Shown here: piece by piece, positions 8,872 through 53,114 of the stretch
Layout: every line of letters starts with the position of its first letter
How positions within the stretch are numbered: position 1 is the first letter of the stretch
DNA from: Isotricha intestinalis
Lineage: Eukaryota; Ciliophora; Litostomatea; Vestibuliferida; Isotrichidae
Length of the DNA: 64,000 nucleotides
Direction of reading: 5' to 3'
NCBI GenBank assembly: GCA_023807065.1
Contig: JAJJLU010003483.1
Coordinates: forward strand, 1 to 64,000
Position numbers and translations under genes: made by a program
The notes under the pieces: generated by a model
Database searches by the model: none
The model's input: only the letters and a program-made list of their open reading frames with translations
What the model was told of the DNA's origin: nothing

Positions 8872-10316
8872 TCATTCAAAGAATTCAAAATTAATACATA
8901 CTTGAATATTCCCATTTATAGAAGTATTAACAATAATATTTTTCGCAAAAACATTATTACTGATTTTTCTTAATTTATTATTATATTCCTTTAAAATTAC
9001 TTCATTAACAAGTTCAGAATAAGTAGCAAATTCTTTTTTATCTTTAAAAGCTTTAAAATATTCATATTTATATTCTTTAATATTATTATTTTTATCATTA
9101 ATTTCCCATAAATAAACATTTTCATCTTCAGAAGCAGAAATAATAATATTATAATTATCATCATAATTAACTTTAATAATTCCTTGTTCATTGACATGAC
9201 CTTTAAATTTTTTAATTAAACTTCCATCATTAATATTCATATATCTAATTCTAGAATCATTTGTTGAAATAATACATTCGTTTCTGTTTTTAAAAACAAT
9301 ATTAGTTATTTTTTTTCCTTTTGAAAATTTCCCTTTTTTATTTCTACATTTAAAAGAATATAAATAATGTAAATTATTAATATCATATAAAGAAATTTTT
9401 CCATCACTTGAACCAGCAATAATTAAATTTCCATTAGGAAGAAAATTTAACGAAGTAATATATTCATTTTCAAATATATTTTTTAAAGGTTTTTCACTAG
9501 AATTAATACTCCAAATTCTAATTTTTTGGTCAAAGCCTCCAGTAATAAAAATATCATCATTATTATTATTATTAAAATAAGGGAAAAAAGCAACAGAAGC
9601 AACAATAGAATTATGTTGATAAATATTAACATAATTATTTAAATTAATATTCCATAAAATTGCTTTATAATCAACAGAAACAGAAACTAATAAATTATAA
9701 TTTTTATTTGACCATGAAATATCAGTTATATCACCATTATGTTCAGAATAAATTTTAAAGGCATCTTCTTGAAAAAAATTTAAATATTCTTTTATATTAT
9801 TTTTATCATTCAAATTATAATAATTTAAACTATTTGAATATGATAATATTTCCCATATTTTTAATACTCCTGAATTTCCTCCTGTTGCAAAATATTTTCC
9901 ATCATTTGAAAATTTACATACCCAAATTTTTTCTGGTTCTGCTTTAAAAATTTGAATTTCATATAAATTTTTTAATAAGGATTTTTCTTCTTTTAAATTA
10001 TATAATTTTGTTTTTATTTCTCTTTTTCCTTCTAATAATGTTTCTTTATCTACTTTTATGTTTTTTATTTCTACTATATTTTCTTGAAATGATTCATATT
10101 TTCTTGTTTTTTCTTCCTCTTGTAATTTCGATATTTCATTTTTATTTAATGGAATAAAAGTATTGTTATTTATATTTGTTATTTCTGAAATATTTTCTAT
10201 TTTATTATCTAAAATATCCTCTAATTCACGTATGCTTGATGCGTCTTCAAAAATACTTTCTCGATTTTCACTGTTAAAAATTTTAATTGTAAAAAATACT
10301 TGCTTTTATCAACCAT
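8872..10316 (-). CDS. WDR44-like WD40 repeat protein, two exons
   Basis: Exons are 10316..10300 (17 nt, MVDKS plus part of Asn) and 10270..8872, joined across a 29-nt intron, giving 471 aa. Splicing adds about 160 residues upstream of the longest uninterrupted Met-initiated reading, including a helical N-terminus and the first WD repeat (IWVCKFSNDGKYFATGG, SGVLKIWEI). Seven blades follow. The spacing and the segment KGKKITNIVF ... STNDSRIRYMNI ... GHVNE ... SASEDENVYLWEI match WDR44, a Rab11-binding endosomal WD40 protein, better than generic WD proteins. The gene ends TGA. A role in membrane traffic is inferred by homology; the Rab-binding part of animal WDR44 is not recognisable. Confidence 0.82.
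10271..10299 (-). other. 29-nt GT-AG intron in the WDR44-like gene
   Basis: On the minus strand it starts GTATTT and ends ACAG. Without its removal the ATG at 10316 runs into TAG 32 codons later; with it the frame is open for 471 codons and gains WD repeat 1. Confidence 0.85.
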
Positions 10317-10619
10317 AAATCTTTTTTTAAATAATTATAAAATATTATTTGTTTTTTTTATTTAAATTTTTAATTAAATTAATTTTCACTTTTAATTTAT
10401 TTATTTATTTTTTATTATTTTATAAGGAAATCAATTTATTATTTTAGGGAAATTTTTCTATAACCTATGAAATATTTGTTTTCTTTGTTTTTATAAAGAT
10501 TTTTACTGCAATAGAAATTTTTTATTTTTATTACATTTTAAATTTATCTTTCTTTAAAACTATATTAAATTTATAATCTAATTATAAAATTATAAAAATA
10601 TATATATAATAAAGAAATT
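10317..10619. other. Gene-free gap
   Basis: T-rich spacer between two minus-strand genes. No feature was seen. Confidence 0.5.
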
Positions 10620-11132
10620 TTATTTTTCTTCTTCATTCCCTTCAGTAATATTTTTTTTATTTTTTTTAGTTGAAATTTCATTATCATCATTTCCTAAAGA
10701 ATCTTCTCTTGGAGAAGGACTATCATTACTTTTATCACTTCTATTACTTTTTTTACCACTTTTTTTCTTTCTTTTTTTTCTATCATCATCTCTACTTGAA
10801 TTAGTATTAGCAGAATGAATTATATTATGAATTTCTTCTTTTAAATTTTTTTCTTTAATTTCACTTAATGAAAAATTTGTCTTTGGAGTATTATTTCCTA
10901 TTGATGAATTATTTGGAATTGAATGAAATAATTTATTATTATTTTGATTATTATTGTTTACATTTTGACCTTCTATAAATATTGCATTGTTTAATTTATT
11001 TTTTCCCTTTTATTTTTATAATACAATATATTATTATTGCAATTATTAATATTATATTATTATCATTGATATTATACTACAAATTATTAATATTTTTTGT
11101 ATTTCTGTGTTTTTATTTTGTACATTTGACAT
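10620..11132 (-). CDS. Disordered Lys/Ser/Asn-rich hypothetical protein
   Basis: The main exon, 11006 to 10620, is open for 128 codons and ends TAA. It encodes a low-complexity chain with Asn runs, a basic KKRKKKSGKKS stretch and a DSPSPRED segment. It lacks a good initiator near its 5' end. A consistent model joins ATG-TCA-AAT at 11132..11124 (MSN) to GKNKLNNA at 11006 across a 117-nt GT-AG intron (11007..11123) in phase 0; reading into that intron soon meets TAA. The main exon is supported by codon-like composition and an uninterrupted frame. The first exon is tentative, and a shorter intron from another upstream start is possible. No family is recognised. Confidence 0.45.
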
Positions 11133-11306
11133 TATATTTATTTATATTTATTTAAAATATATTTAAAATCATCAATTTTATTTTAAAAAAATAATTAAAA
11201 GAATTCCATTAAAAAAACAACCATTAATTTTTTCATAATTTACAATTTCAAAAAATAAACCAAAAAAAATAAAAAATCATATATCAATAATAAATAAAAA
11301 AAATTC

Positions 11307-12308
11307 TCATTTCTTCATAATCAAACTTCTAATTAGTTGATTTTTATCTAAAATATTGTTAATAAAATTCCAATTCAATTTTTCATCTTGAATTCTTTTT
11401 TTTAAAATTTCTTCCATTTCAGAATGCTCTTTTCTTTTTTTATGGACATTAATATTAACAGCATCAACATTTCTTAAATTATTAATCATAGAATCTAATT
11501 GTTTATTAAAGCTTTTAGTTGATAAAACTTCTTCACCAGCTTTTCCAAAAAAAGTATCAGGTCTTAAATCTTTTTCATTTTGAGTCATAATAAATTTCCA
11601 ATGATAAGCTCTATACTTTTCATCAATATTATTTTTTATATTATTATAAAAATCCTTCTCTCTTTTTATATGATTATATATTTTACCATTATCATAATCT
11701 AATTTCCTTATTGATTTTAAAAAATTGTTATTAAAATTTCTTGATTTATATTTATTCATATTATTCAATGTTTTATTTCTTTTTATTTTATTATTATTAT
11801 TTATTGTTTGAGTTGTTTGGTTGAAACTATTTTCACCTGTGTTTAACATTGAATTAAAAAATGATTCTTTTGATTTTATTTGATCATTACTTTTAAATAA
11901 TTGATCTATATAACTTTCTTGATTTAAATTTTTTTGCATTTTTTTTATAAAATTTTCCTTTGGTAATTGTATGTTTTGAGTTTTTCCAAAAAAATTAACT
12001 CTTTCATTTCTCTTTGGCTTAAAAAATAATTTTATTTGATTCTTTCTTATATTTTTTTTATTTTTTATTATTGGCTTATTCTCTTTTTTTTCAATTTTTG
12101 ATAATTTACCATAATCATAATAAAAAGTATGCAGTGATTTACCTATAATATCTTTTTTATTATTTATGCTTTCTTTTATACTTTGAAATTTATTTGAATC
12201 AAGATTTGGATAAATTGATTTTGATAATGGATTCTCATCTTCATTTTCTTTTCCTTTATTTTTTTCTTTTTCTTTTTCCTTTTCTTTTTCATTCTTGGAT
12301 ATTTCCAT
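11307..12308 (-). CDS. Hypothetical basic protein
   Basis: The protein is 333 aa starting at MEISKNEKEKEK. The frame stays open for 42 codons upstream (to 12434), but that part is Phe/Ile-only and looks like a translated T-rich leader, so I place the start at 12308. It has a Lys/Glu repeat at the N-terminus and an Asn/Lys-rich middle. A more ordered C-terminal 130 residues (from KIYNHIKREKDFYNNIKNNI) contains charged helices and a TFFGKAGEEVLSTKSF segment. No known domain was recognised. The C-terminal part may be the conserved unit. The gene ends TGA. Confidence 0.6.
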   Translation of the reverse strand: MEISKNEKEKEKEKEKNKGKENEDENPLSKSIYPNLDSNKFQSIKESINNKKDIIGKSLHTFYYDYGKLSKIEKKENKPIIKNKKNIRKNQIKLFFKPKRNERVNFFGKTQNIQLPKENFIKKMQKNLNQESYIDQLFKSNDQIKSKESFFNSMLNTGENSFNQTTQTINNNNKIKRNKTLNNMNKYKSRNFNNNFLKSIRKLDYDNGKIYNHIKREKDFYNNIKNNIDEKYRAYHWKFIMTQNEKDLRPDTFFGKAGEEVLSTKSFNKQLDSMINNLRNVDAVNINVHKKRKEHSEMEEILKKRIQDEKLNWNFINNILDKNQLIRSLIMKK

Positions 12309-12665
12309 TAAAAAAAATATATTAAAAAACTCAAATAAAAAATTTAAAATAATAGAAATAAAGGAAAAAGAAAAAAAATAAATAAATAAAAAAATACTCA
12401 TAAAGGAAATGTTAAAACTTTTATTAAAATACAATAAATAATTTATAGAATTATTGATTTCTTTTTATAATTTTATTTCATTGGTTTTTTTTTTCAATTA
12501 TTTTTTATTATCTTAATATAAAAATATAAGTTTATATTATTTATAGTTTTTTATAAGAGTTTTTGATTTATATTTCACAAAAAAAATTAATATTTTATTT
12601 ATAAGCCAACTTTATTAAACAAAAACATTTTATTTTTACTATTCTAATTCGCATTTTATTATTAA

Positions 12666-14189
12666 CTAATTATCTAAAAAACTTAAATTTTCTTTTAAAT
12701 AAGAATTATCCAAACTTTCTTGTACTTTCTTATTTTCCAATTTAACAGAATTTTTTAAATTAATAATATTTTTTTTATCATTTTTAATTCTTTTTATATT
12801 TTTTAAAACATTAGAATTCGATTTATGAAAATAAATATTTTTTTCAGATTTATTAACATTTTTATCAAATAAATTATTTTTTTGAAACAATTTATCCCAA
12901 TTAATTAAGTTAATTTCAGTATTATTTCCTGCATTAGAAGTAATAGGATTATAACTAATATTAATTCCAATTTCCTTAAATTTTCTTTTATCTCTTAAAG
13001 TATTCATTCCTTTATTCACTAAATTTAATTTTACTTTTTCTCTTATTCTATTTGATATTATATTAAAATTAACTGTTTGATCTATTTCTTTTGTATATTC
13101 ATTTATTATATTAAATTTTAATTGAATATTATCTATTTTTATTTTTTCTTCTTCTAATTTCTTATTTATTCTTTCTATTGATTCATTTAATAATATTTCT
13201 TTTTTTATTTTTCCTTCTTCATATTGTATTAATTTTAATCCTGTAAAATTATCTTTTTTATTTTTTGATTTAATTGAAAAATTCATTGAGTCTTTTTGTA
13301 ATTCGTTTTTTTTTGGATGAATTATTTTTTTCTTTTTAAATGTTAATAATTTAGGTTTTATTGTGAAAAAAAATTTTTCTTTTAATAATTTCCTATTTTT
13401 ATTATCATTATTTTTCTTTTTTAAAGTTGATATATTTATTCTTGTATAAGTTATTTGAAGATTGTCTTTCTTTTTTTTTGATTTTATATTTGTGATAATA
13501 TTATATTCTTTATTTTTTTTATTATTATTTTTTAATTTTTTTTCTTTATTACTTTTATCTTTAGTAATTTTTTTTTCTTCAATTAATTGATTATTACTTT
13601 TATTATCATTTATTTTCTTATTTTCATCTGAATTTTTTGTTTCTTTTTCATTTTCAATATTTTTTTCATTGATATTATTATCAAAAGAATTTGTTTCACT
13701 AATAATAATATTTTTATCAATAAGATTATTCTCATCACTATTTTCATTATCTTTTTCTATTAAATTATATAAACTGTAATTTTCAGATAATTCATTTTGT
13801 ACTTTTTCATAATTTTTTCTTAATTTATGTGAATAATATTTATTTTTACATTTTAGAGAATCAGTTGATTTTTCAGCCTTTAAAGTTCTTATATCTTTAG
13901 TATAACTTTTTTCAGAAATTCCATATTTATCATATTTTAATAATAAAGGAGAAACACTTCTTTGTCTTAATCTATTTTTAAATCTTAATTTTTCTATAAA
14001 ACTCATTACTTGAGTTTTTTTTTCATCTGAATCAAAAATTATTTTTATATTATTATAATAATTTTCATGTAATTTACCTAAATTCTTATTTAATGGTTCA
14101 TTTTCTTTTACTAATCTTTGAAATGAATCTCTACTCATTACTAATTTTTTTATATTTCTTGTTCTTGTATTTGGATAATTTTCTTCCAT
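12666..14189 (-). CDS. Hypothetical Lys/Asn-rich protein
   Basis: The protein is 507 aa and ends with TAG. The N-terminal 110 residues (MEENYPNTRTRNIKKLVMSR and the segment RLRQRSVSPLLLKYDKYG) are the least repetitive. Residues about 150-230 are Lys/Asn/Glu low complexity, and the remainder is basic with predicted short helices. There is no signal peptide, membrane span or catalytic motif. It is divergent from the coiled-coil gene at 14543 across a 353-bp spacer. The function is unknown. Confidence 0.55.
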   Translation of the reverse strand: MEENYPNTRTRNIKKLVMSRDSFQRLVKENEPLNKNLGKLHENYYNNIKIIFDSDEKKTQVMSFIEKLRFKNRLRQRSVSPLLLKYDKYGISEKSYTKDIRTLKAEKSTDSLKCKNKYYSHKLRKNYEKVQNELSENYSLYNLIEKDNENSDENNLIDKNIIISETNSFDNNINEKNIENEKETKNSDENKKINDNKSNNQLIEEKKITKDKSNKEKKLKNNNKKNKEYNIITNIKSKKKKDNLQITYTRINISTLKKKNNDNKNRKLLKEKFFFTIKPKLLTFKKKKIIHPKKNELQKDSMNFSIKSKNKKDNFTGLKLIQYEEGKIKKEILLNESIERINKKLEEEKIKIDNIQLKFNIINEYTKEIDQTVNFNIISNRIREKVKLNLVNKGMNTLRDKRKFKEIGINISYNPITSNAGNNTEINLINWDKLFQKNNLFDKNVNKSEKNIYFHKSNSNVLKNIKRIKNDKKNIINLKNSVKLENKKVQESLDNSYLKENLSFLDN

Positions 14190-25147: not shown

Positions 25148-27241
25148 ATGTCTTTAAATTTTAGTAAGAATATACTCTTTCATTTTTCGAATTCAATAAC
25201 TCCTTTCAGCAGGTAAACATATTATAAAAAATTAAATTTATAGTCCAAGAAGTAATAATGAAATATATGAAAAACAAAATGATAAAACATTACAATATAA
25301 TGAATTAATATCTATTATACTTGATTCATTAAAAAATGGAAAATATTTTTTAGAAGATGAAAATCAAATAGAAGTAAAAAATATATATTATAAATATAGA
25401 AAGTATCATCAATAATTTACAATAATAAAAAAACTAAACCATTTTTTTTAATGAATGATATAAATTTAAAAGAATTTATTCCAATTATAAGAGAAGCTAA
25501 AATAATAGGAACAAATAATAATTTTTGTTTATTTAAAGAAGGTTCTGAAATAAAAGGTTATTATATTTTAATTAAAGGAGGAATTAAAGTTAAAACTTAT
25601 TCATATCAAATTTCTGAATTGAATAAAGAATTTCTTGAAAACATTTTAAAAGAATATAATTTAAATTTCAATGAAGTTAATTGGAAAATAAAATCAATAG
25701 AATCAGATGATAAAACTTATAATAATATAATTAACAATAATAGTTTTTTTAAAGATTCTTCTTATAATAATAAAACAATGAAATCTTCAATTAATTTAAA
25801 ACATAGTATACTTAAAAACTTTAAATTAAATTCTAAAATAGAAAAAAAGATTGAAAATGTACTTTTTACTTATAATTTAAATAAGAATGATAATGAACAT
25901 TTAATTTTTGGAGGAACATCTTTATTTAGAGAAGTTTTAATTAAAAATAATAAACATTTTAGTTCAGCTTATACTTATATAGAAAATAAAAGTATTATTT
26001 CTTCAAATAATTTTTTTTTAAAAAATGAAAATAACCTTTTTAATTCTCCAGAAATCCTTTTATTATATATTGATGAAAGTAGAATTAAATCTTTATTAGA
26101 AAAAATATCAAAAAGTGAAAAAAATAAAATTGATTTTATATTATCTCATATTCCTCCTTGTAAAAATTTAAATAAATTTCAATTTGAATTATTCTTTTCA
26201 AATATTGAAGAATTATATATTCCTGTTCATACTCAGATAAATAATAATGAAGAAGATAAAAATTTTTATTTGATTTATAAAGGAAGTTGTGAAAGTGAAA
26301 ATGGAAAAGAAATAATTTATGATGAAGGAGATTTTATTTTTCTTGAAAAATTATTTGGTAAAAAAGGAAAGAATTTATATACTAAAAATTTTGAAACTAT
26401 TCTATTAAAAATTAATATTTTGTCTATTCCTATTGAATCAAGAAATTCTTTCCAAAAATATTTTAAATATATATTAACAAGACAAAATTTTCTTAGGAAA
26501 AGATATAATATTAATAAAAAATTATTTCAAGTAAAATCTAAATTTTATAAAATTAAAAGTGAAGAAAAAACTAAAGAAAAAGAAATAGAAAATATTAAAT
26601 TTAAATTTAAATTAAAAAAAAATGAAATTCCAAGATTAAAAAGTGCTTTTGTAAGTCCATCAAAAAACTGTAGAAATAAAAATTTAAATTTAATGACAAA
26701 TAATTTAGAAAAAATAAATTTAACAAAGAAAGAAAATATAGATGAACAAATAAAAAAAATAATAACAGACAGAAAAAGTGAAAATGATTTATCTTTAATA
26801 GATAAAACTACTTCAACAAATTATTCAATACAATCTAAAAAAAGAATAAATCAATTATTTAGAAATAATAATAGTAAATTTACAAAAAAAAAAATTGCTA
26901 AAACTTCTACAACATTATATTCTCAATTTACTAATCAAAAAAATTCAGAAATAAAATATAATTTATTACAAAAAGAAATTGATAATGAGAATAAACAAAT
27001 AATTACTTTTAATGGATTAAATGATAATTATAATTATAATACTGTTAAATTAGATTCTATTAGAGGAGAATATGAAAATAAAAGTAAAAAGATATTAACT
27101 CCTCAAGAAAAGATTAATGAAATTGTAAAAATATGGAAAGAATCTATTAAAAATGAAAAAGGAAAATTTCAAACTGAACATTTTAAAATTCCTTTATTAC
27201 ATAAATTATGTGAAAAAAGAATGAAAATATTAAATAATTAA
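25148..27241 (+). CDS. Cyclic-nucleotide-binding-domain protein, three exons
   Basis: Exons are 25148..25212, 25244..25373 and 25400..27241, separated by introns of 31 and 26 nt, giving 678 aa. Splicing supplies the start (MSLNFSKNILF), a helical pre-CNB segment (NELISIILDSLKNGKYFLED) and KVSSIIYNNKKTKPFF before the former Met at 25451. Residues about 80-300 form a CNB-A split by an insertion (IIGTNNNFCLFKEGSEIKGY at its start). A second CNB-like fold follows, containing YIPVHTQINNNEEDKNFYLI. Neither cassette keeps the Glu/Arg pair clearly, so nucleotide binding is doubtful. The C-terminus is Lys/Asn-rich. It resembles the 6389-8512 protein in layout. Confidence 0.75.
25213..25243 (+). other. 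31-nt GT-AG intron, CNB gene intron 1
   Basis: It starts GTAAAC and ends ATAG. It joins AG to T, making Ser, and opens the frame into exon 2. Confidence 0.8.
25374..25399 (+). other. 26-nt GT-AG intron, CNB gene intron 2
   Basis: It starts GTAAAA and ends ATAG in phase 0. It joins NQIE to KVSSII in frame with the long third exon. Confidence 0.85.
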
Positions 27242-27765: not shown

Positions 27766-28002
27766 TTAATTATCACTTTTGTTTATTCTTTCAATTGATT
27801 TTAAACAAATTTGTTCAAGAATTTTTTCATTAGAATCAAGTTTTCTGTTTAAATCTTCATAAAAAGCTCTAGTATTTGAAACAAAATTAGTATTCTAAAT
27901 TTTAATATATAATAATACATTTGTAAAAGCTCTATCATTAGGAATATTACTTTTAAAAGTTGGTAATTTTAATTCAGTAGTTCCAAAAGTTTTTGCTCTC
28001 AT
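27766..28002 (-). CDS. Small 70-aa hypothetical protein, two exons
   Basis: Exon 1 (28002..27919) encodes 28 residues from MRAKTFGTTELKLPTFKSNI. Exon 2 (27894..27766) encodes 42 more (NTNFVSNTRAFYEDLNRKLD at its start) and ends TAA. They are joined across a 24-nt GT-AG intron in phase 0 whose last three bases are an in-frame TAG. Without splicing the frame stops at that TAG. The product is predicted helical in its second half. No family is recognised; a small ciliary or complex subunit is one possibility. The clean codon structure on both sides of the intron supports a real gene. Confidence 0.6.
27895..27918 (-). other. 24-nt GT-AG intron
   Basis: It starts GTATTA and ends TTAG. It is the shortest intron inferred in the window. 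It is a multiple of three with an in-frame TAG at its 3' end. Confidence 0.6.
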
Positions 28003-29594: not shown

Positions 29595-30200
29595 TTACTT
29601 TAAAAAAGATTCTTTTAATTCTGAAAAAATTTTCCTTATATCTTTTTCTATTTCTTTTTCAACAGTTTTACAAATATTATTTAAATGTTTTCTTGAAGAA
29701 CCACTTTCATATTCGAATTGAAAATGTTCATCTTCCTCTTCATTATTTACTTCTTTTAAAGTAACAGTAGTACTTTTTCCTTCATCTTCATTTAAACCAC
29801 ATAATTTAACTTGAATTTCACAATCATAAATAAATTTTATTTTTCCTCTTGAAAATACAAAATAAGTCTAAAAAAAAAATAAAATAAAAAATATTACATC
29901 TCCAGAATAAGAACTAAATTCATCAAAATAAAAAGCGTCTTTGTAATTTTTTTTATTATTTTTAATATAATTATTGAAAAAATCTTCAAGTTGTTTTTTA
30001 GTTATTTTTTTTTCTTCCCATGTTCCTGCTTTATTCCAAGCACTTCCAATTTTATTTGGATTCTCATCTACTTTTTGATTTGTTTGTTGTGGTGTAAATC
30101 CTTTATGATCTGCTTTCATATCACTTTCTCTTTTCCAATATGTATATGAGGGCTTTTCTATTTCTTCTTCTTTTTCTTCTGAATCTTTTTCTTTATCCAT
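29595..30200 (-). CDS. Aha1/Hch1-like Hsp90 co-chaperone, two exons
   Basis: Exons are 30200..29898 and 29867..29595, joined across a 30-nt intron in phase 0, giving 191 aa. Exon 1 carries SAWNKAGTWEEKKITKKQLE, the start of the Aha1 N-terminal domain. Exon 2 continues FSRGKIKFIYDCEIQVKL, matching the RGK-I-F-Y strand of Aha1, and ends with the long C-terminal helix of that domain. It therefore has only the N-terminal Hsp90-middle-domain-binding module, like yeast Hch1, and lacks the second START-like domain of full Aha1. The family stimulates Hsp90 ATPase. It is divergent from the MORN gene across only 77 bp. Confidence 0.85.
29868..29897 (-). other. 30-nt GT-AG intron in the Aha1-like gene
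   Basis: It starts GTAATA and ends in a T-run plus AG. It is phase 0 and a multiple of three, and retention gives an in-frame TAG at its 3' end. Splicing joins SSYSGD to TYFVFSRGK. Confidence 0.9.
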
Positions 30201-38010: not shown

Positions 38011-38072
38011 TAAATTAATATATCATTCAAAAAATTAAATACATTTAGAATAAAAAAAAAAAAATAAAAAAA

Positions 38073-40496: not shown

Positions 40497-41478
40497 ATGG
40501 ATTCGCACCATCAAAGTTCTTCTAAAAACAATAATTTATGGATAGGAGAATTAGAGAATTGGATGGATGAAAATTACATAACAAAATCAGCAGAATCATT
40601 TAGTAAAATAAAATATATAACAAAACAAAATAGATGTGAGAGTAAAAAATGTAAAAATAATGCGTGATAAAAATACAGGAAGTTTAATGGGATATGGATT
40701 TATTGAATTTAATACAAAAGAAGAAGCATCAGAAGCACTTCAATTAATGAATGGAAAGCAAATGCCAAATTCAAATAATAAAGTTTTTAAATTAAATTGG
40801 GCATCTTATTCTCAAGGAAAAAATCCTAGTAATTTAAATCCTAATGAATATTCTATTTATGTTTGTGAATTAGATCCAAGTGTTAATGAAGAAATATTAC
40901 AAAATTATTTTAAACAATATTTCAAAAGTGTGATTGGAGCAAAAATTGTTGTTGATCCTTCTACTAAAGTAAGTAAAGGTTATGGTTTTGTTAAATTTAG
41001 TGATCAAAATGAATCTCATAGAGCTTTAAACGAAATGAATGGTAAATTAATAAATGGAAAACCAATGAAAATTAATACTGCAGCTTATAAAAAAAATCAA
41101 GAAAAAAAAGCTTTTCCTGGAAATACAATAAATAATAATATAAATAATAATTTAATGTATGATGCTCAAGCATTATATAATATGCAAAATGATCCAAATT
41201 TATTATTACAACAACAACAACAGCAATATTTAAATCAATTATATTTAAATGGATATTATGCTAATTATTATCAAATATATGCTCAATTATATTCTCAATT
41301 ACAAAATATGACTCCTGAACAACAACAACAATATTTATTAACTCAATTACAAAATATGACTCCTGATCAACAACAACAATTTTTAATGTTAATGGGTTAT
41401 CAAAATGTTTCTCAAACTAATGAAAATAATAATAATGGAAATTCTAATACTCCAAATAATGGAAATCAAAATCCTTAG
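40497..41478 (+). CDS. Two-RRM protein (TRNAU1AP/Nam8/TIA-like), two exons
   Basis: Exons are 40497..40602 and 40634..41478 with a 31-nt intron, giving 316 aa. Splicing rebuilds RRM1: LWIGELENWMDENYITKSAE then FNVRVKNVKIMRDKNTG and GYGFIEF. This layout (LW-G-LE-WMDE) is typical of SECp43/TRNAU1AP and yeast Nam8. RRM2 spans about 108-190, with YSIYVCELDPSVNEE and KGYGFVKF. The C-terminal region is Gln/Asn-rich, with a poly-Gln run and two tandem copies of QLQNMTPxQQQQ, resembling the prion-like tails of TIA-type proteins. RNA binding is certain by family; the target (U1 snRNA, tRNA-Sec or mRNA) is unknown. It ends TAG. Confidence 0.88.
40603..40633 (+). other. 31-nt GT-AG intron in RRM1
   Basis: It starts GTAAAA and ends ATAG. 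Its removal joins two halves of RRM1 that lie in different frames. Confidence 0.88.
41204..41383 (+). repeat. Poly-Gln run and tandem Gln-rich repeat in coding sequence
   Basis: CAA/CAG codons encode a Gln run at about 41208-41225. Two 48-nt direct copies starting CAATTACAAAATATGACTCC at about 41297 and 41345 encode QLQNMTP followed by x-QQQQ. This is an expansion-prone tract within the RRM gene. Confidence 0.75.
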
Positions 41479-42043
41479 TTTTTAAAACTATTTTTTTTTG
41501 ATGGCTTTTTACACTTTTTTTTTCTTTTAGTTTTTTATTTAGGTTGTTTTTTTATTTTATTTTTTGAAATTTATGTTGTTTTAAAATGAAAATATAAAAT
41601 TATTAATATATAATGTATTGTAAGGTTATATGAATGAGTGAATATTTTTTCTTTTTTCTTTTTTTGAAATTTTGTTTTGTTTTTATAGATTTGTTTTTTT
41701 TTGAATTTTTCTTTTGTTTTTTTTGTTTTTTTGATTTTTTTATTATTTTTTTCTATTTTTTATTTCTTTTTTTCAATTTATTTTTTCTTTTGTTTTTTCA
41801 ATTATTATCGGCAAAATAAAAAAACCTACATTCACTCAAAAAAGAATATAACATAAACCTAATTAATATATATCATAATTATATAAAATCCTAAATTAGG
41901 ATTAAAGTATATATTATATAATAATATTATATTCCAAAATTCAATTATTATTATATAATATATGTAAACTTTCCAAAATATTTTTAAATAACATTTATTA
42001 ATTATAATTATAAATATGGAAATATAAAACAATAATTAAAAAT
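41479..42043. other. Gene-free gap, T-rich then A-rich
   Basis: Beginning after the RRM gene, this is T-rich to about 41815 (the open frame at 41634-41819 is Phe-only and judged spurious), then A/T-rich without features. Confidence 0.45.
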
Positions 42044-42245
42044 AATATTTGCCAAAAAATCACAAATTATCAATTAATTGATTTAAATGATATTAAAGAA
42101 TAATAAAAAATTTATAAGAAAACAATATGAAAAATAAGAAAATTTATTTTAGATATTTTCGTTCGAAAATAAAAAATTGGAAGAATATATTAAAACCCAT
42201 TAAATAAATTTAAATTTAAAGAAATAAAATTTATGATTCATTGAA
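42044..42245 (+). pseudogene. Decayed coding tract, unidentified
   Basis: A single frame over about 65 codons reads ICQKITNYQLIDLNDIKE, TAA TAA, KIYKKTI, TGA, KIRKFILDIFVRK, TAA, KIGRIY, TAA, NPLNKFKFKEIKFMIH, TGA. The composition is coding-like and the frame is kept, but six stops interrupt it, with TAA where Gln would be natural. No family is recognised. Confidence 0.3.
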
Positions 42246-42356
42246 ATTATTATTAATTTATCTTAAATTTTTTTAAATGATAATTTTAAAAATATTGTAT
42301 AATATTATTTTATGTTCAATCATTATATCTATAATAAAATATAATTATAACCTATT

Positions 42357-43223
42357 TTATTTATTAATATTATGATTAAAATTAGGAAAATTGAAATAAT
42401 TAGTAAAATTAGGTTGATTTAAATTTTGTTTTCCTTTAAGAGCAGTTTGTAAATTTTTTCTTCTTGTATTTAATCCACCATAACTAGTTTGAGGTCTTTT
42501 TTGATTTAATTGATTAATATGTTCAAAATTTATTCTTGGATCAGGTTCAATATCATCTTCACTTTTATTTTCTTCTTCATTATTAATACTATTATTTAAA
42601 TTATCTTTACTATCTTCTAATATTATTTGTTGTTGATTTATATTCTTATTATTATTTACATCATTTAATATATCTGTCAATTCATCTATAAATGAATCAT
42701 TATTTTCTTCTATTAAATTTTTTTTTTCTATTATTTTCAGTCTTTTAAATTTTAATTGAGGATTATTATTTTCAGATAAATCTTTTAATGAATTATATGA
42801 TAATCCTTTATTAAAACCTATCAATCCACTTGTTTTATTAAAATAATTAAATAAGTTTCTTCCTTTTATTTCATTATTATTTATTATTTTTGGCAATTTT
42901 CTTTGATTATCATTATTACTATTTTCATTATTATTGTTATCTTTATTATAATAATTTAACTGATTAACATTTATATTTTGGATATTTATATCTATTGGTT
43001 TCTCTGGATAACTCTGAGTGCTTGAAATTATATGTTTTGTTTTATTAAAATTAAATCTTCTATTTATTATATTTTGTTCGTTTGACATTGAATAAAAATT
43101 TGATGATGTATTACTTCCTAAATTCCCTTCTTTTGATCTCGATGAATTAAAATTAATTCGAACTGATTTTATATATTAAATAAACTTACCTGTTCCTGAT
43201 GAATTCCCATTATTTGAATTCAT
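42357..43223 (-). CDS. Hypothetical Asn-rich protein, two exons
   Basis: Exons are 43223..43190 and 43162..42357, separated by a 27-nt intron with a perfect GTAAGT donor, giving 279 aa. The spliced N-terminus is MNSNNGNSSGTVRINFNSSR, followed in frame by KEGNLGSNTSSNFYSMSNEQ. The body is Asn/Ser/Lys-rich and disordered, with an acidic patch (NEEENKSEDDIEPDPRINFE). The C-terminal RPQTSYGGLNTRRKNLQTAL looks like a short linear motif of microtubule- or cilia-associated proteins, but this is only an impression. The function is unknown. Confidence 0.6.
43163..43189 (-). other. 27-nt GT-AG intron
   Basis: It starts GTAAGT and ends TCAG, phase 1. Retention would read into TAA. Its removal adds 36 residues upstream of the next in-frame Met. 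Confidence 0.8.
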
Positions 43224-43585
43224 TATATTTATTAATTGTTTACTTTATTTCAAAAATAATAAGAAAAACTTTAAATTTATTTAAAAAATATATTCATCTA
43301 TTAAAGATATATAAAAAAATGTGTTTATAAAATAAAAATTAATTAATATTATATATTATTTATCCAAAATTAAATTTTTATCAAAAAAATCAAATCAAAA
43401 TAATAATGTCTATAATAATCTTCTTACAAAAACTAAAATAACCTAATATAAAAAACTAATGACTTCATTTAAAATAAAATACCCAAAATATTCTATAAAC
43501 AAATTTAAAAAAAAATTTATAAACTCAAAACCCCAAAAAAATACTTCCTAAAAAAAAATTACTCATTAATAAAAAAATAAATAAT
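43224..43585. other. Divergent spacer
   Basis: AT-rich spacer between the two divergent genes, A-rich toward the ATG at 43586. No motif was seen. Confidence 0.4.
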
Positions 43586-44842
43586 ATGTCTCAAAAGAGA
43601 AAAGAATCAAAAACAAAACATCATTACCTTCAAAAGCAATCTCCAGACAAAAAAGATGACTTATCAGAATCACGTATAATAACAAAAAACTTAGTATATG
43701 TAATAGGATTAAGTGCATCATTAGCAAATAAAGAGAAATTAATAAAATATGAATATTTTGGTCAATATGGAACAATAATAAAAATAGTAGTAAATAAAAA
43801 TAAAGCATACAATCAAAACTCACCTCATGGACCAAGTTATTCAGCCTATGTTACATATTCAAAACCAACTGAAGCTTCAATTGCTATTTTAAGTCTAGAT
43901 GAAACTTCTATCGATTATCATTTAATTAAAGCTAGTTTTGGTACTACTAAATATTGCTCTTATTTTTTAAAAGGATGTGAATGTACTAATAAAGATTGCG
44001 TTTTTTTACATAGTTTTGCTGATGAAAATGAAATTATTAAAAGAGGAGATTTAAATGTTAACAAAACTATTTTTGCTAATCAACATGTTATTGCTATTAA
44101 AATTGCTGATATATTTAATCCTGAGGTTAAAAGTAAAATTTTAGGAAGTAAAAGAGTTAGAACTGTTTTTCCTCCTCCTTATACTCTTTATAAATCTAAA
44201 TATGTTTTAGAAAATTCACCTTCATATCAAAATTATAATAATAATATTAATCATAATGTTTATAATAATAATAAAAATAATGATAAATCTAATTTAGAAA
44301 AGAATAATAATGATGAAAATATTAAGAAAAATGAAAGAGAAGAGTGTAATCAAATTAAAAATAAAGAGAAAAATAAAATAATAAATACTAATGAATCTAC
44401 TAGTAATTCATCTAAGGAAGAAATTGAAAATAATTGTTCTAAAAATTTATTAAATAAACCTTTAAATTCAAGAGAAACTTCAAGGTTTAGTTTTTGTAAA
44501 TCAAATGAAGATAGCAATAATAATTCAGTTAATATTCCTATTCAAATTAGATATTTATTAGATACAAAAATTAATTTGTATAATCTTTCAAAATATATGG
44601 ATCAAAATGTTCTAGATGATATTCTTGAAAACGAATATATCAATTCTGAAAGTGATGAACAAACAAAAGATTGGGGAAATTTTATTAAAGAAAATAACAA
44701 AAATTTCCATAAAAATAAACCAAAAGATGATTTAGAAAATGAAGTAGAAAATATAAATAAATTTATTATGAAAAAAGTATGGTTATATAATAAAGAATCA
44801 AAAAATCAAAACACAAAAAAAAAAATTTTCACATATCAATAA
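43586..44842 (+). CDS. CNOT4-like RRM plus CCCH zinc-finger protein
   Basis: The protein is 418 aa. Residues about 30-125 match the CNOT4/Mot2 RRM closely: RIITKNLVYVIGLSASLANK, YEYFGQYGTIIKIVVNKNKA, GPSYSAYVTYSKPTEAS. A CCCH finger follows: TTKYCSYFLKGCECTNKDCV then FLH. The region FANQHVIAIKIADIFN is an extra conserved block. The RING domain expected before the RRM is missing. The remainder is Asn/Lys-rich. In yeast and animals CNOT4 is a CCR4-NOT-associated E3 ligase; this RING-less form probably keeps only the RNA or complex-binding role. It is more conserved than its paralog at 28327. Confidence 0.87.
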   Translation: MSQKRKESKTKHHYLQKQSPDKKDDLSESRIITKNLVYVIGLSASLANKEKLIKYEYFGQYGTIIKIVVNKNKAYNQNSPHGPSYSAYVTYSKPTEASIAILSLDETSIDYHLIKASFGTTKYCSYFLKGCECTNKDCVFLHSFADENEIIKRGDLNVNKTIFANQHVIAIKIADIFNPEVKSKILGSKRVRTVFPPPYTLYKSKYVLENSPSYQNYNNNINHNVYNNNKNNDKSNLEKNNNDENIKKNEREECNQIKNKEKNKIINTNESTSNSSKEEIENNCSKNLLNKPLNSRETSRFSFCKSNEDSNNNSVNIPIQIRYLLDTKINLYNLSKYMDQNVLDDILENEYINSESDEQTKDWGNFIKENNKNFHKNKPKDDLENEVENINKFIMKKVWLYNKESKNQNTKKKIFTYQ

Positions 44843-45009
44843 AAAAAATATAAATAAAATATATAAAAAACTTGAAATAATTTAACTTAATAAATTCCAC
44901 AAAAAAATAAAAAAAAAACAAAAAAAATTAATTTTTAAAAAAAAAAAATAATTTATTTAAAAAAATAAAATTAGAATCTTCAAAAAAAAAATGAATATAA
45001 AAATTAAAA

Positions 45010-46092
45010 ATGTCAACAATAAATCCATTTGGGAAATTAAAAGTAGAACATGAAAATGATAGTGAAGAAGAAGGATACCAAGAAATAAAAAAAAATAAAG
45101 TAGTTCAAAATCCAGAATCAAAAAAGAAGAAAAAAGTTCGTCCTCAAGAACAAGAAAAAGAAAAAGAGAACAATAAATCAGATGAAGAAGAAGGATTTGA
45201 AGAAGTAAATAAACATCAAAAAAGACAACATTACAGAGAAAGAAATGATGAATATGAAAAGAAAGATCATTATTCAAAGAAAATAAAAAAAGAGAATTAT
45301 GTAAAAGATGATAATAAACCAAGTAAAAAAAGAGAATTTGAAAGAAGAAGTGGAACTGGAAGAGGAAAAGAAATATCAAAAGGTGGAGCTGGTGGAAAAG
45401 GAACTTGGGGAAATAATCCTAAAGAAATTTCCAGAAGATATGAAAAAAATACTGATGATTATTATTTTGAACAAGCTTTAAATCCTAAATTTAAAAAAGA
45501 AAAGTTTTATCATGATAATCCTAATTATCAAAATGAAGACATTAAAGAAAATAATGAAAAAAATGAAAATAAAGAAAGTGATGAAAAAAATGAAAATGAA
45601 AATGAAAATGAAAAAAATAATGAAAATGAAGAAAAAAAAGAAAATGAAGAAAAAAAAGAAAATGAAGAAAAAAAAGAAAATGAAGCAAAAAATGAAAGAA
45701 GAAGAAAAAAAGATAAAAAAAAAATTAATAATCAAGAAACTAAAAAAGAAGATTTATTACAAAGACCTGAAAATGCTATTTCCTTAGATGATTATTTAAA
45801 AAATCAGAATTATGAAAAAGAAGAAGAAAAAATAGTAGAAAAACCAAAAGATACTTTAAATTTACAAGTTAAAAATACTGAAAAAATTAATGAAATTGGA
45901 GTTAGTGAAGTTCATAAAAAAAAAGAAAAAAAAGTTAAAGAAAAAAAAGTTCAAGAAAAAGAAGAATTTTCCAATTTTTTTGAAAATTTAAAAGTTGAAG
46001 ACAATAGTCAAAGAAGAAGATATGATAATTATCAAAAAAAAGGAAAAAAAGAAAAATTCCATTTTGATCCTAATGACTTTCCTAAATTTTAA
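45010..46092 (+). CDS. SERBP1/Stm1-like ribosome-associated protein
   Basis: The protein is 360 aa. It starts MSTINPFGKLKVEHENDSEE, like the NPF-x-L N-terminus of Stm1-type proteins. Residues about 115-140 carry the HABP4/PAI-RBP1 signature (REFERRSGTGRGKEISKGGA, GGKGTWG). The rest is Lys/Glu-rich and disordered, with a tandem repeat of ENEEKK. SERBP1 and Stm1 thread through the mRNA channel of idle 80S ribosomes and preserve them. The many Glu/Lys runs give long spurious open frames on the other strand. Confidence 0.85.
   Translation: MSTINPFGKLKVEHENDSEEEGYQEIKKNKVVQNPESKKKKKVRPQEQEKEKENNKSDEEEGFEEVNKHQKRQHYRERNDEYEKKDHYSKKIKKENYVKDDNKPSKKREFERRSGTGRGKEISKGGAGGKGTWGNNPKEISRRYEKNTDDYYFEQALNPKFKKEKFYHDNPNYQNEDIKENNEKNENKESDEKNENENENEKNNENEEKKENEEKKENEEKKENEAKNERRRKKDKKKINNQETKKEDLLQRPENAISLDDYLKNQNYEKEEEKIVEKPKDTLNLQVKNTEKINEIGVSEVHKKKEKKVKEKKVQEKEEFSNFFENLKVEDNSQRRRYDNYQKKGKKEKFHFDPNDFPKF
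45625..45678 (+). repeat. Three tandem 18-bp units encoding NEEKKE
   Basis: The unit AATGAAGAAAAAAAAGAA is repeated three times exactly and followed by a partial copy. It lies inside the SERBP1/Stm1-like gene and keeps the frame, as expected for replication-slippage expansion. Confidence 0.85.
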
Positions 46093-46252
46093 AAAATTTA
46101 CTTAAAAAAAATATTTTTAATAATTGGATTTTTTGTTGAATACAAAATAAAAAAAAATTCACTTAATTTAATTATTTTTATAATAAATAATATTAATTCT
46201 TTTTTTAAAATAAAAAAAAGTAAAACAAATAATTAAAAAACAACAAAAAAAA

Positions 46253-47779
46253 ATGTTTGATATTTCCTCAAACGAAAATAATATATATGATAAAAATTCA
46301 ACTCCTTCAAAAGAAAGTTTTTCAAATATTAAAAAAGAAATAAGTCCAGTTCCAAAACCTGATTTTTCTCCTTTAACACAAAAAGATTTAACTTTTTCTT
46401 TAAAATCTCATGGTTCATATAAAAAACCAAAAATCATTTTTCCAGAATCTCCAATGAAAAGTCCTATACAAAAATACTTTACTCCTATAAAAATAGAAGG
46501 AAAAAATTTATTTGGAACTACTCCTATTAAAGATAAAAATATTTTTAGAAAATTAAATTTCGATGATATTGATAATGAAAATAAAAATATTAAACATAAT
46601 AAATTTTTAGATTTATTAGATAATTGTGTTGAAGAAAAAGAAGAAGAAAATTTTTTAACACCTTCACAATCACAAAATATTTCAAAAGGAGAAATTTTTT
46701 CTAATAATTCAAACTTTGAAAATAATATAAATATTAATAATCAAGAAAAAAAAAGAAAATTAGAACAAGATTTTACAATCTTAAAAACATTAAGTCAAAA
46801 CAAATTTGATTCAGTTTATAAAGTTCAAAATAATCAAAATAAAAAGATATATTGTGTGAAAAAATCATATAAATCATCGTATAAGAATAATTTTAATATA
46901 GTTGAAAGTTTATATAAAGATTTAGAAAATCATCAAAAATCAATTTATTCAAAATTTGCAATTAAATATATAGAATATTGGATTGAAGAAGATATATATG
47001 ATTTAATAGAAAATTCAACTCATTTCACAGATAAAAATTTATATATTTTAACAGATTATTTTCAAAATGGAGATTTATTAGATTATTTAAGTAGATTAGA
47101 ACAAAATGATTATAAATTTACTGAAGATTTTTACTGGGATTTAATTTTTGAAATGATAATTTCTGTTATTTTTTTCCATGAATGTGGTTATTTACATTTA
47201 GATATTAAACCTGCTAATATATTAATTGATGAAGATGGATATATTAAATTAAGTGATTATGGTTTATGTCATAAAATATCTTCTTTAAATAAATTAGATG
47301 ATATTTTTGAAGGTGATTCTAAATATATTTCACCTGAAGTTTTTAATAGGAAATCTCCTAAAGATTTAAATTCTAAATGTGATATTTTCTCTTTAGGTTT
47401 ATCTATTTTGGAAATTATGGCTAAAGTTGAATTACCTAATAATGGTCCTTTATGGAGGAATATTAGAAGTTCTGATTTTAAAATTCCTAATGAATTTTTA
47501 ATCAATTGGAATATTAAAAATATTGATAACTTCCTTAATATTATTAAATATATGATTGCTCCTTATAATGAAAGATTAGAATTAAAAGATTTAATTCAAT
47601 TATTTCCTGAATTGAAAAAAAGAGAAAATTTACTTTTAAATGGTATTTATCAAAAAAGCTGTGTTATACCTAAAAATTTATCTCAGTTAAAAGAAGAATT
47701 AAATTGTAATTCTATTGGAACTTTAAACAATTTTGAAGATTATAATAATGAAATGATAATTGATTCTCCAAGAAGTTAA
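46253..47779 (+). CDS. Wee1-like protein kinase
   Basis: The protein is 508 aa. The N-terminal 170 residues have many Ser-Pro/Thr-Pro sites (FPESPMKSPIQKYFTPIK) typical of CDK-regulated proteins. The kinase is at about 173-455: catalytic HLDIKPANI (315-323), magnesium-binding SDYG (334-337), EGDSKYISPE, and ELPNNGPLWRNIR, which together are the Wee1/Myt1 subfamily signature. These kinases phosphorylate the inhibitory Tyr/Thr of CDK1. The glycine loop is degenerate (LSQNKFDSVYKV, no canonical GxGxxG), and the ATP lysine is probably Lys203 in YCVKKS. It is probably active since the catalytic Asp and Lys are kept, but this is uncertain. There is no membrane span, favouring Wee1 over Myt1. Confidence 0.88.
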   Translation: MFDISSNENNIYDKNSTPSKESFSNIKKEISPVPKPDFSPLTQKDLTFSLKSHGSYKKPKIIFPESPMKSPIQKYFTPIKIEGKNLFGTTPIKDKNIFRKLNFDDIDNENKNIKHNKFLDLLDNCVEEKEEENFLTPSQSQNISKGEIFSNNSNFENNININNQEKKRKLEQDFTILKTLSQNKFDSVYKVQNNQNKKIYCVKKSYKSSYKNNFNIVESLYKDLENHQKSIYSKFAIKYIEYWIEEDIYDLIENSTHFTDKNLYILTDYFQNGDLLDYLSRLEQNDYKFTEDFYWDLIFEMIISVIFFHECGYLHLDIKPANILIDEDGYIKLSDYGLCHKISSLNKLDDIFEGDSKYISPEVFNRKSPKDLNSKCDIFSLGLSILEIMAKVELPNNGPLWRNIRSSDFKIPNEFLINWNIKNIDNFLNIIKYMIAPYNERLELKDLIQLFPELKKRENLLLNGIYQKSCVIPKNLSQLKEELNCNSIGTLNNFEDYNNEMIIDSPRS

Positions 47780-47898
47780 TATATTAATCTATTAATTTAT
47801 TTTTATATTTTTATAAAAAATAATAAAATATAATTGTATTCACAACATTCTTTTCTAAGAAATATATATACATAATAATAAATATTAAAATAAAAAAC

Positions 47899-50800
47899 TT
47901 AATTTTGAATAGATTCATTATTTTCTTTTAAATTTTGATTTTTAATAATTTCATAAATTACATTTTGGGGAATTACACTTAAAATTATTCTTGTTTTATT
48001 AATATCTTTATTTTCTCTTATTATCATAGGAAAAATTTCAAATATATAACTTACTATAACAATTAAAATTATACCAACACAAATGAAAGTTGTAATATTA
48101 TAAGTATTATTATAAAAATTTTGAAAATTTTTAAATAAAATATTAATTTGAGTTTGATAAAAAGGAATTAAAACATCAACAATAATTAAATTTAAATCTC
48201 TGAATCTAATATCATTAAATAAATCAAAAGGATTTAATTTCATATAAAGTTCTTTATTAACATTATCAGGAATAGAATCATAATAAAAAGCAGTTCCAAA
48301 ACCAAAATCATAATAAATAAAATTATTTTGAATAGCAGCATTTAAGATATCATAATAATCATAAGCAATAGCTAAAATTTCTTTTAAATAATAGGCATAA
48401 AAATTCATTAACCCATAATTAACAATATTATTTCCAATAGAATCACAAGTTAAATTAGTTAAACTATGAATTTTATTAAAGAAAGAGCATAATTCTACAT
48501 TTATATTAGATAAAATTGAAGTTGCATTTCCTGGAAGACCATTTTTACTTATATTGTTATATATATATATTTGATGTTCTCTTGCTTCAATAAAATTTTC
48601 TTTTATATATATTACTGTTACTTCTAAATCATTTTCTATTTTTTTTCGATTTAAATAATATCCTGAATTTTTTATTTCATTTCTCATATAATTTATGCTT
48701 TTTAAAAAATATCTTTCTTGAGCTAACATCAATACGTTTATTAAAGCAGAATTGTAAAATTTTATATAACTTTTAGATACATAAATTATTAATATAAGAA
48801 TTATTATTGTTAATATGGTATGAAAAAAAGTTGTTATGGTAAATTCTTTTTTGAAAACTTTATTTTTGAAAATATTTTCTTTTTTTATTTTTACCACTTT
48901 TGTTTTTTTTTCATCAAAATTTTGATTTAAAGATTCATTTTCTTTATTTGTTATTAAAGATTCATCTTCATCATCTTCTGAAGTATTATGTAAATAATCT
49001 TGTTTTTGAGTAAGATTATTTTTATCAATTTGAATTTTTGAATATTTTAAACATTTAAAATTCATCATTCTTATAATTTCAATATCAATTTTATAAAAAA
49101 TATTTAAATACTGTTCTTTTTCTCTTATAGTTTTAATTTTCCCTAAAACACAAATATAACTAACTCCAATTTCACATATAAAATAAATGATGAAAATAAT
49201 CCATAAATAAACTTTTTTGTTTTTAATAATTGAAATGATTTCATCTAAATAATATTGATTTAAAACTGCCATTCCATCTGCAATTCTTTGGAAATTTGAA
49301 GCAATAAATTGAGATTTACTATTCATAAAATGTTGTTCTGTTTTTGTTGAATGAATAAAACCAAAAGCACAAAAAAAATAAATCTGTAATGAAGGATTCA
49401 TAAAAATATTACTTTCTTCTGATTTCAAAGAATAATTTTCTTCATAAAAAAAAAAATTTAATGTAAAATAATAATTATCAATTATTTCTTCTGCTTCTGA
49501 AGAAATTATTGGCTTATTATATATAAAATAAGTTAATCTTTCTTCACTTTTATTGTATAAAGTAAGAATTTGATTGGAAATATATTCAGAATATTCTGTT
49601 CTATTATTTATATGTTTAATTTCATATTTTGGATTTTTTACTAATATATATTCTATAATATAATAACAAATTAAAATTACATCTTCAGCAATTGAACATT
49701 GAATATGAACAAAATAAGATAAATGATAAATTCTTTTTATTGATTTTAATATTTGTTTACAAACTAAATAAGGAGCAAATAATAATATTAAAAGAGATAA
49801 AAAATAAACAAATGATAAACTTATAATACTTTTATTTATAAAATGAGGGGAAATTAATTTTTTAACTGCATTATTTTCACTATATTTTTGTGTATTTAAT
49901 AATTTTTTTGTATTTTTATCATTCATCACTAAATTATATTTATTTATTGGATTATTAATATTAATTTCTTTTTTTATACTTATTCTTTTTGTTTGAGATT
50001 TTTCTTCATTCATTATTTCTTCTACTTTACTTTCAAAATGATAACTTTTAATTTCAATAAAAGAATGAGTATTATAATCATACATTGAGAATTTAATTTT
50101 AGAATTAATTTTATAATAATTTAAATAATCTACTTTATCTTGTTTAAATATAGATTTAGTACTGTCTAATTTATCTTTATCTATATTTGAAAAAGATATA
50201 ATATTTTGTTCTTCTTCTTCTTCTTCTTCATTTTCTTCTTCTTCTTTTGATTCATAAGATGATGAAATATTAGAATCTTCTTCCTCAATAAATTCTTTAT
50301 CTAAATTTATATCATCATTATATTTTTTCTCAAAAAATTTTTGTATTGATAAATATCCTTCATCTTTTGAATCATTTTTATTTTTAAAAAAAAATGTTTT
50401 TCCTTCAATGTCAAAATTTATTTCTTCATCATTAGAAGGTATATAATCATTTTCAATACTAAAACCATCAGAATTGTTTTTTAAAACATGACAAATACTT
50501 TTTTTACTTCTATTTTTACGAGAAATTTTATCAAAATTTTTAAAATTGGATGATTCATAATTTGAATTAATATTATCTAATTTAAGAAAATATCCAATTT
50601 TTTCGTCTAAAATATTTAATTTTTTTAATGAACATTCAAATTTTTTATTATTTTTCCATGTTATTGAAGAATCAGATTTATCTAAAAATTTATTTTTAAA
50701 GATATTTATTTTATCGTTTAAAGGGTTTTTTTCTTCAGATTGATTTGATAATTTATTTAAAACTTCATCATTAAAATCAAGAATAAATTGAGTTATATCT

Positions 50801-53114
50801 AAATTTGTATTTAAATAATGAGATTCTAAACCTAATAAATTTAAACAATTTGGAGTAAAATTTTGAATGAAAAGTCTATCATTTAATAAAACAAAACATT
50901 TATTTCTTAATATTTCTGTATTTCTATTTGGTTTTGTTGATAATTTTAAAAATATCATTGAATTATTATTTTCATCAAAAATTATTCCAATATCAACATA
51001 AGCTGGAACTAAAAATTTTGCACTATTTCTAAATAAAACAAATAATTCTTTTAAATTATTTACTGAATAATTATGATATGTTAAATTTTTTATTTTTGTT
51101 CTTATCATATTTTCATGTTTTTTTCTGATTAAATCTGGTAAAATTATATTCATATTTTTGCCTATTAAATCCAATTCTGAATAACCTAATAAGTGACATA
51201 TTTCTAAAGAAATTTTTTTTATAATTCCAAAAGAATCTCCATATCCATTTATAAGAATAAACTGATAATCTGATTTGGAAATTAAGTAATTTATATTAAA
51301 AAAAGATTCTTTAAATTTCTCATCATTATCTAAATCATTTATTATTATATTTTGATTATCTTTTGGATCATTTAATATTTCTTTTACAAAATTTGCATAC
51401 AAAGTTGTTAATTTTTTTGTATTTAAACCATTAGAAACTAAATTTTTATATTTTTCTTTAATTGTTATTTTCATATCATTAATTTTTACTCCTAAATTTT
51501 TTAAATGATTAATATCTATAGATTCATTTTTATTCAGTAGTAAAGTCCAAAATTGAGAATAAAAAGTTGCAATTTTTTTAATTAAAGTTAAAATTTCTTT
51601 TGTTTGATAAGCAAAAGAAATATGAGTTTGTTCAATTCCCATTTCAATTCCTCTTTCTTCTAAATTTCTTTTTATTCTATAAATAAAAAATTCTTCTGAA
51701 AAACTAAGGTTGTGTATTTCTGTTGCTTTCAATAAAGTTTTATAACTTTTTTGATATTTATGTAATTTTTCCATTTGAAATACTGCATAATTTACTAATA
51801 AAATTGGACTTGCTTTAAATATATTTAAAGATTGTTTATATATATCATCAATATGTTGATATAAAATAAAATCCATATCAGAATTATTATTCATTAAATC
51901 TTTTATATGCTCTATCAATTTTTCTAAATTTTCTACATTTTTTATTGTTTTTATATGACTTAAAAATGATTTATTATATGAATAACTTATTAAATTCATC
52001 ATACTTTTTCTATCTTTATTTTTTAATTCTGTTGCATTTATAAATAATCTAATATTATTATATAATTCTATATCTTTTGTTGTATCTGTTATTGAATGTT
52101 TAAAATTATTAATTTTGACTAAAAAAATTACCACTACAAAAAGCAATGAACTAATAATAAAAATCTCTGTTAAACCTTTAAAAGAATTTTTTTTTATTAA
52201 ATTTCCAAAAAATAGCAAAATACATCCCCAACAATAAATAATATTTAAAACAAATTTTGCAACAATTATTGGATTATTTTTATAATTTTGATATTTTCTT
52301 TCCTTAAAAAAAGCGTAAGAACAAATTATAGAAGTAACTAAAAATCCGAAAATGCAAAAATTTAGAATATCAATAATACAATAAATTTCTAATAAAATTA
52401 TCATAATAGTTTTACAAATCATCATAACACAAGAACCATTAATTACTAAATATTTTGAAACAGAAGAAGAAAATTTATCTGTTTTATGAAATGATAATGA
52501 AAGAAAAATATATACTAATATTATCATTATTATTAAGCAAAAAGAACAAATTGAAACTAAAATTAAATGTTTATCACTCCAACATGAAAATTTTTGACTA
52601 AAATATAAATCAGAATCACATACAATAACAGTTAAAAAAATTTCTAAAAAAATTATATTATTTTTACCTTGTAAAGGTATTATAAAGATTGAACATAAGA
52701 CATTCATTATATAACGTAAAAGAAATAAGAATATTTTTTTATTTTCTATTTTTCTTCCTTTATATGATAATATGATTAAATAGATATAAATTACAAAAAC
52801 AAATAAAATTAAAATACAAAAAAATAAAGTTGAATAAAGAAATAAATTTTGATTATTATCAAAATAATGTAAAAAACGAAAAAATTTAAATAATTTAAGC
52901 ATATATAATAAAAGTTTTGTTTTTTTCCAAATTGGAATTGTCTATAATAATTAAATTTTATATATACTAAGTCATTCATTATTAATCCAAAGTTTTGAAA
53001 AATTTCAATAAATGAAAATAACACATCTATAAATAAATTAGATGAAGACGAGTTATATATATTATAGATAACATTATAATTTGCTTCTTTAACTTTTTTG
53101 AAAATTTCATTCAT
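47899..53114 (-). CDS. Giant PAS-domain polytopic membrane protein (ciliate TMC/PAS type), two exons
   Basis: Exons are 53114..52968 (49 codons, MNEIFKKVKEANYNVIYNIY onward) and 52941..47899, joined over a 26-nt intron, giving 1729 aa. Splicing supplies MNDLTIPIWKKTKLLLYMLK. The N-terminal 330 residues contain about eight membrane helices. A soluble helical region follows, then a PAS fold at about 607-690 (ICHLLGYSELDLIGKNMNII). A long acidic disordered stretch encoded near 50200-50300 precedes at least four more C-terminal helices (for example SFVYFLSLLILLFAPYLV, ICVGIILIVIVSYIF). This order occurs in large ciliate PAS/TmcB-like families. It could sense light, redox or mechanical cues. No kinase or cyclase domain is present. 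Confidence 0.82.
52942..52967 (-). other. 26-nt GT-AG intron in the PAS membrane-protein gene
   Basis: It starts GTATAT and ends ATAG. Its removal joins FGLIMNDL to TIPIWKK in frame with the 1667-codon exon. Confidence 0.85.

Follow-up and report, generated by a model that had tools for sequence, protein, structure and literature searches.

Very small introns are common across ciliates; median lengths lie between 15 bp, for Stentor, and 72 bp, for Oxytricha, and the same source draws a litostome intron motif from Entodinium caudatum data (PMC10946202). A dedicated account of trichostome litostome introns was not found in the literature searched, which included few subscription papers. Among the described systems, the litostome Chaenea vorax resembles the genome analyzed here in that no stop codon is reassigned, the telomeres are of the C4A2T type, the genome is intron-poor (88% of Chaenea genes are intronless), and the introns are tiny (PMC13096750). 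However, 94% of its introns measure 16 bp, its GC content is 40%, and its chromosomes are gene-sized, whereas the introns described below span 21-68 nt with a median of 30. Nyctotherus ovalis has introns of 21-29 nt, and a standard code has been argued for it; as here, in-frame stops or a length that is not a multiple of three (3n) cause retention to end translation, but its chromosomes are gene-sized and its range of intron lengths is narrower (PMC2633312). Paramecium introns of around 25 bp are likewise exposed by stop codons when retained, but 3n introns are described there as underrepresented, a shortage not seen in our biased sample (PMC5014332). The account of Muniziella cunhai describes a litostome with CCCCAAT telomeres, multigene AT-rich chromosomes and a standard code, as found here, but with introns of about 100 bp (PMC11316547). 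The first-pass annotation of our sequence had regarded tiny introns in combination with the standard code as unusual; this is not supported, as the combination is published for Chaenea and has also been argued for Nyctotherus (PMC13096750; PMC2633312). The tiny introns described here are mostly genuine, yet they are an ordinary ciliate trait of a kind already known.

The window is a stretch of 64,000 nt of Isotricha intestinalis DNA with a GC content of 15-22%. It lies on contig C919, one of 2153 contigs in an assembly of 57.3 Mb. A tRNA-Ala (TGC) occupies positions 1-74 at the extreme start of the contig. Telomere repeats of the form (CCCCAAT)n were detected at 14 of 20 sampled contig starts; descriptions of the litostomes Balantidium (PMC10978948), Muniziella (PMC11316547), and Chaenea (PMC13096750) report the same motif, and the repeat thus points to a litostome in a comparison that covered litostomes alone. 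Of the 150 Ras matches that were scored, 148 had no internal stop, as was true of 94 of 115 kinesin matches, and the 32 ORF ends in the window comprised 25 TAA, four TAG, and three TGA codons. Judged from these reading frames, the genetic code is the standard one, in agreement with the first-pass annotation, and an altered code was rejected because most Ras and kinesin matches read through without internal stops.

Table 1. Introns proposed in the window, with the genes that contain them.
Gene	Gene position	Intron	Length (nt)	Strand	Phase	Remark
Rab-like GTPase	2431-3249	2566..2625	60	+	0	
WD40	8872-10316	10271..10299	29	-	2	after 17 nt coding; likely
cNMP-binding-like	exon 1 from about 25148	25213..25243	31	+	2	
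cNMP-binding-like		25374..25399	26	+	0	second intron
70-aa ORF	27766-28002	27895..27918	24	-		putative; unconfirmed
Aha1	29595-30200	29868..29897	30	-	0	inside Aha1_N domain
RRM	40497-41478	40603..40633	31	+	1	splits first RRM
43163 gene	42357-43223	43163..43189	27	-	1	
TmcB-like	47899-53114	52942..52967	26	-	0	after residue 49

Eight short introns and a longer one in a Rab gene had been proposed for the window (Table 1). All lengths and edges of the short ones proved to be as claimed: read on the coding strand, every one starts with GTA, six end with TAG and two with CAG. The proposed clustering near 5' ends was also borne out, seven of the nine introns falling within the initial 20% of their coding sequences when calculated from hand-entered positions. 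With the phases as assumed, retention of any of the eight short introns leads to a premature stop, and retention of the Rab intron gives a stop within its 60 nt. We conclude that the inserts are very probably ordinary spliceosomal (U2-type) introns of a litostome macronuclear genome and belong to the shorter ones among lengths of 21-68 nt.

As GT..AG pairs can occur by chance in AT-rich DNA, they might simply join ORFs of genes that really begin at a downstream Met, and the behavior of decoy signals, which performed equally in both of our ORF tests, is in line with this reading. A simple gene finder applied to 288 kb returned 32 GT-AG introns compared to 16-51 for nine other dinucleotide pairs, three of which retain GT or AG and one of which is GC-AG. 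With GTA..TAG inserts of 20-70 nt in 264 kb, 12 introns were obtained, compared to 4-15 for 35 permuted pairs run at equal intron cost. De novo detection of a splice signal by ORF joining thus gave no excess over decoys in either the 288 kb or the 264 kb. Because decoys join as many ORFs in AT-rich DNA, frame restoration alone is no proof, and as ORF joining is uninformative here, homology has to decide. The reading as chance joins is difficult to reconcile with the internal splitting of RRM, Ras, Aha1, and kinesin domains and with the conservation of exon 1 in paralogues, and we regard it as highly improbable.

The spliced protein of the Rab-like gene, for which the earlier claim of a 60-nt intron was confirmed, contains a Ras domain (173 bits) and aligns without gaps to YPT6 (Rab6) across the junction. 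Two further Rab genes are each interrupted by a 39-nt GTA..TAG insert, one of which falls exactly between KSVKLQI and WDTAGQERF. Scoring covered 150 of the 621 candidates from a genome search with the Ras family, and a large Rab/Ras expansion in this genome is likely. The RRM intron is flanked by motifs that we take to be RNP2 and RNP1, and the alignment of the gene with PUB1 continues across the junction. A 93% identical paralogue on contig C1139 has an intron of 36 nt compared to 31 nt in the window, and homologues on C220 and C980 are uninterrupted at the site of the window intron. The RRM rows L078, L079, and L080 were left out of the intron analysis; an insert is present at the end of row L077.

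With Aha1, the spliced protein reached an Aha1_N score of 48.8 bits compared to 40.3 bits for exon 2 alone, and exon 1 alone gave no Aha1_N match against Pfam. An 82-83% identical paralogue on C200 has a 38-nt intron where the window copy has 30 nt; a PDB search with Aha1 returned nothing at E 0.001. The Pfam match of the cNMP-binding-like gene was weak and under the cut-off, and its 78% identical paralogue on C2089 carries both introns at the same positions, with 33 and 27 nt compared to 31 and 26 nt, while the exons of the two genes remain in frame. No Pfam domain was found in the 43163 gene, whose paralogue on C1139 has a co-located 27-nt intron with diverged interior and conserved flanks. 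In the five informative paralogue pairs, intron length was unequal in four, with differences that are not by threes, and the exons stayed in frame.

The N-terminus of the TmcB-like protein gave 30 matches in the genome, and 20 stretches were retrieved for analysis of the junction (21 with the window copy). When junctions were scored by protein similarity without any requirement for splice sites, GTA..TAG was the best junction in 16 of the 21 stretches, which is a strong result but not a fully independent one, because the profile was derived from introns first read as GT-AG. The junction of L067 was placed one base off, and those of L061, L066, L069, and L072 were missed. Edges were assigned by eye for L061 (26 nt) and L072 (24 nt), and the doubtful L066 and L069 were excluded from the TmcB-like count and from the intron set described below. 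The site of the window intron is also occupied in 18 paralogous stretches, with introns of 24-36 nt. Protein homology that starts at the downstream Met, which the first-pass annotation had named as a finding that would speak against the introns, was encountered once: P0001, the one database relative that was found, starts with the first Met in exon 2, as expected if the inserts were chance joins. However, exon 1 is conserved among the paralogues in this genome, and the start of P0001 therefore appears to reflect intron-blind gene prediction. A region of C1139 (14199-25581) carries RRM, 43163, and TmcB-like paralogues in the same order as window positions 40497-53114, and the two regions look like a duplicated chromosome block.

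On these sequence comparisons, homology supports six of the eight short introns (the two of the cNMP-like gene and those of the Aha1, RRM, 43163, and TmcB-like genes) as well as the Rab intron. The earlier claim of spliced GT-AG introns therefore holds for these; the WD40 intron is likely, and 27895-27918 is unconfirmed. In the WD40 ORF, the first in-frame Met occurs only at about residue 355 of 477, and this lack of an early Met makes the intron at 10271-10299 likely. With the one usable ATG, five one-intron models can be built, among which the 29-nt GTA..CAG intron has the best acceptor. A WD40 copy on C1631 (L088), probably a recent duplicate or an allele, is identical over the 5' stretch compared (window 10225-10380) with the intron included, and is uninformative on the intron because of this identity. 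The 70-aa ORF reached a weak coding score of 10 with its putative intron, and this score is the sole support for 27895-27918; there was no further match of the ORF in the genome and no Pfam domain. It is thus conceivable, at somewhat below even chances, that six of the eight short introns are real and that 27895-27918, and perhaps 10271-10299, was misread, for example because there is no gene or because splicing occurs elsewhere. The isolated, low-scoring 70-aa ORF and the four alternative WD40 models fit such a mixture, whereas the GTA and TAG/CAG edges, which both inserts share with the others, argue against it.

We assembled 46 homology-anchored introns, comprising the seven supported window introns (10271 and 27895 were excluded), their paralogues, and the kinesin and Rab introns. 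They span 21-68 nt with a median of 30, weighted toward the TmcB-like family, which contributes 19 of the 46; the median across 12 intron groups is 33.75, with three sites pooled in the Rab group. As 26 introns have at most 31 nt and 36 at most 36 nt, with the remainder extending to 68 nt, the 24-31 nt to which the first-pass annotation had confined all but the 60-nt Rab intron are merely the lower part of the range, and the set does not form a tight length class of the Paramecium or Nyctotherus type (about 20-33 nt). GTA was found at the 5' end in 46 of 46 and TAG at the 3' end in 44 of 46 (CAG and AAG are rare alternatives), with GT-AG imposed for most edges when the introns were listed and with a choice among two or three GT-AG solutions in L041 (second intron), L042, L054, L081, and L084. 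The interior contains 1.4% G and 2.2% C, and no branch-point A at a fixed position was seen in columns -4 to -18 of the 46 introns. Upon retention, a stop would be encountered inside the intron in 36 cases and downstream in nine, and none is reached in one fragment. Each of the 25 introns that are 3n long includes a stop, a result that is partly built in, because a phase-0 3n intron ending with TAG always carries one, and the search was blind to 3n introns without an internal stop. Such a homology-supported set of tiny introns from an AT-rich litostome with the standard code should aid gene prediction.

Nine introns of the set, with 25-68 nt in seven genes, come from kinesins, for which all 117 candidates were scored and 115 matched. 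In 18 rows with a match start at position 15-34, a 5' intron was found in six; the other 12 have a divergent but uninterrupted N terminus without a 5' intron. These counts leave out late-starting rows outside the 18 (for example, weak matches and the second row on C1297) and the stop-bearing rows on C472, C1564, C2042, C1964, C1851, C957, C1778, and C269. In two related kinesin genes, at C281:22150-22400 (L050) and C1759:6880-7040 (L052), the frame is lost at the same site after VVVA by differing amounts and without an intron-like insert, so these are pseudogenes, assembly errors, or cases of frameshifting.

The inserts could alternatively be germline internal eliminated sequences (IES) that were retained in the assembly. 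In Paramecium, which has an altered genetic code, IES are bounded by TA and often measure 26-31 bp. The size of our inserts would fit, TA is present at or near both ends of each insert, and the contigs are ciliate DNA bearing telomeres. However, excision from TA to TA would leave GTAG, four nucleotides more than intron removal, and as these four bases would break the frame, the IES reading fails and was rejected; homologues agree with the exact removal of GTA..TAG, and the occupation of one site across 18 paralogous TmcB-like stretches also speaks against elimination. We therefore give practically no credence to IES remnants. U6 RNA of normal type, the one snRNA that was searched, is encoded at two loci of 108 bits each, above the Rfam cut-off, and carries the ACAGAGA stretch that has a role in splicing. 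For the introns, U1 and U6 would pair with GUA(A/U) at the 5' site, and a nearby AG would serve as the 3' site. Each intron may be recognized as a single unit (intron definition), which would need no fixed branch-site motif, and nonsense-mediated decay may clear unspliced messages. Recognition as a unit and decay of unspliced messages are suggested by analogy, as they have been argued for Paramecium and Nyctotherus (PMC5014332; PMC2633312).

A search with the spliced Aha1 protein found 157 proteins, and 29 picked from the 120 listed were aligned. Ten of these are contiguous across the junction. Seven are interrupted there by 9-17 additional residues, the first of them V and the last Q, and 12 terminate within or just past the intron position. 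The residue at the start of the intron in the latter 12 is V in 11 cases and I in P0182. Although relatives derived from DNA cannot be told apart from any derived from RNA, some contigs of contiguous relatives have at least 6 kb (P0127), which suggests intron-free genomes rather than cDNA. The Aha1 intron thus occupies one site in many related sequences, is variable in length, and is missing from others. Since a single homologous intron varies between 24 and 36 nt from paralogue to paralogue, the longest introns have 68 nt, and that of Aha1 is patchy, we tentatively consider, without favoring it, a litostome lineage in which introns are still shrinking and being lost, with GTA and TAG as their sole invariant sequence and without a recognizable consensus at the branch site. 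If so, this lineage would stand between Chaenea, with introns of 16 bp, and Muniziella, for which longer ones are reported.

The V...Q inserts of the Aha1 relatives fit introns that were translated in frame by a gene caller that took TAG as Gln. They occur in P0122, P0124, P0169, P0170, P0171, P0174, and P0191 and are an apparent annotation artefact. Public protein sets thus appear to include intron-derived inserts (seven of the 29 Aha1 relatives), which could mislead inference of the genetic code. The 14-3-3 protein of the window has close relatives in jgi and ena sources that are up to 99% identical.
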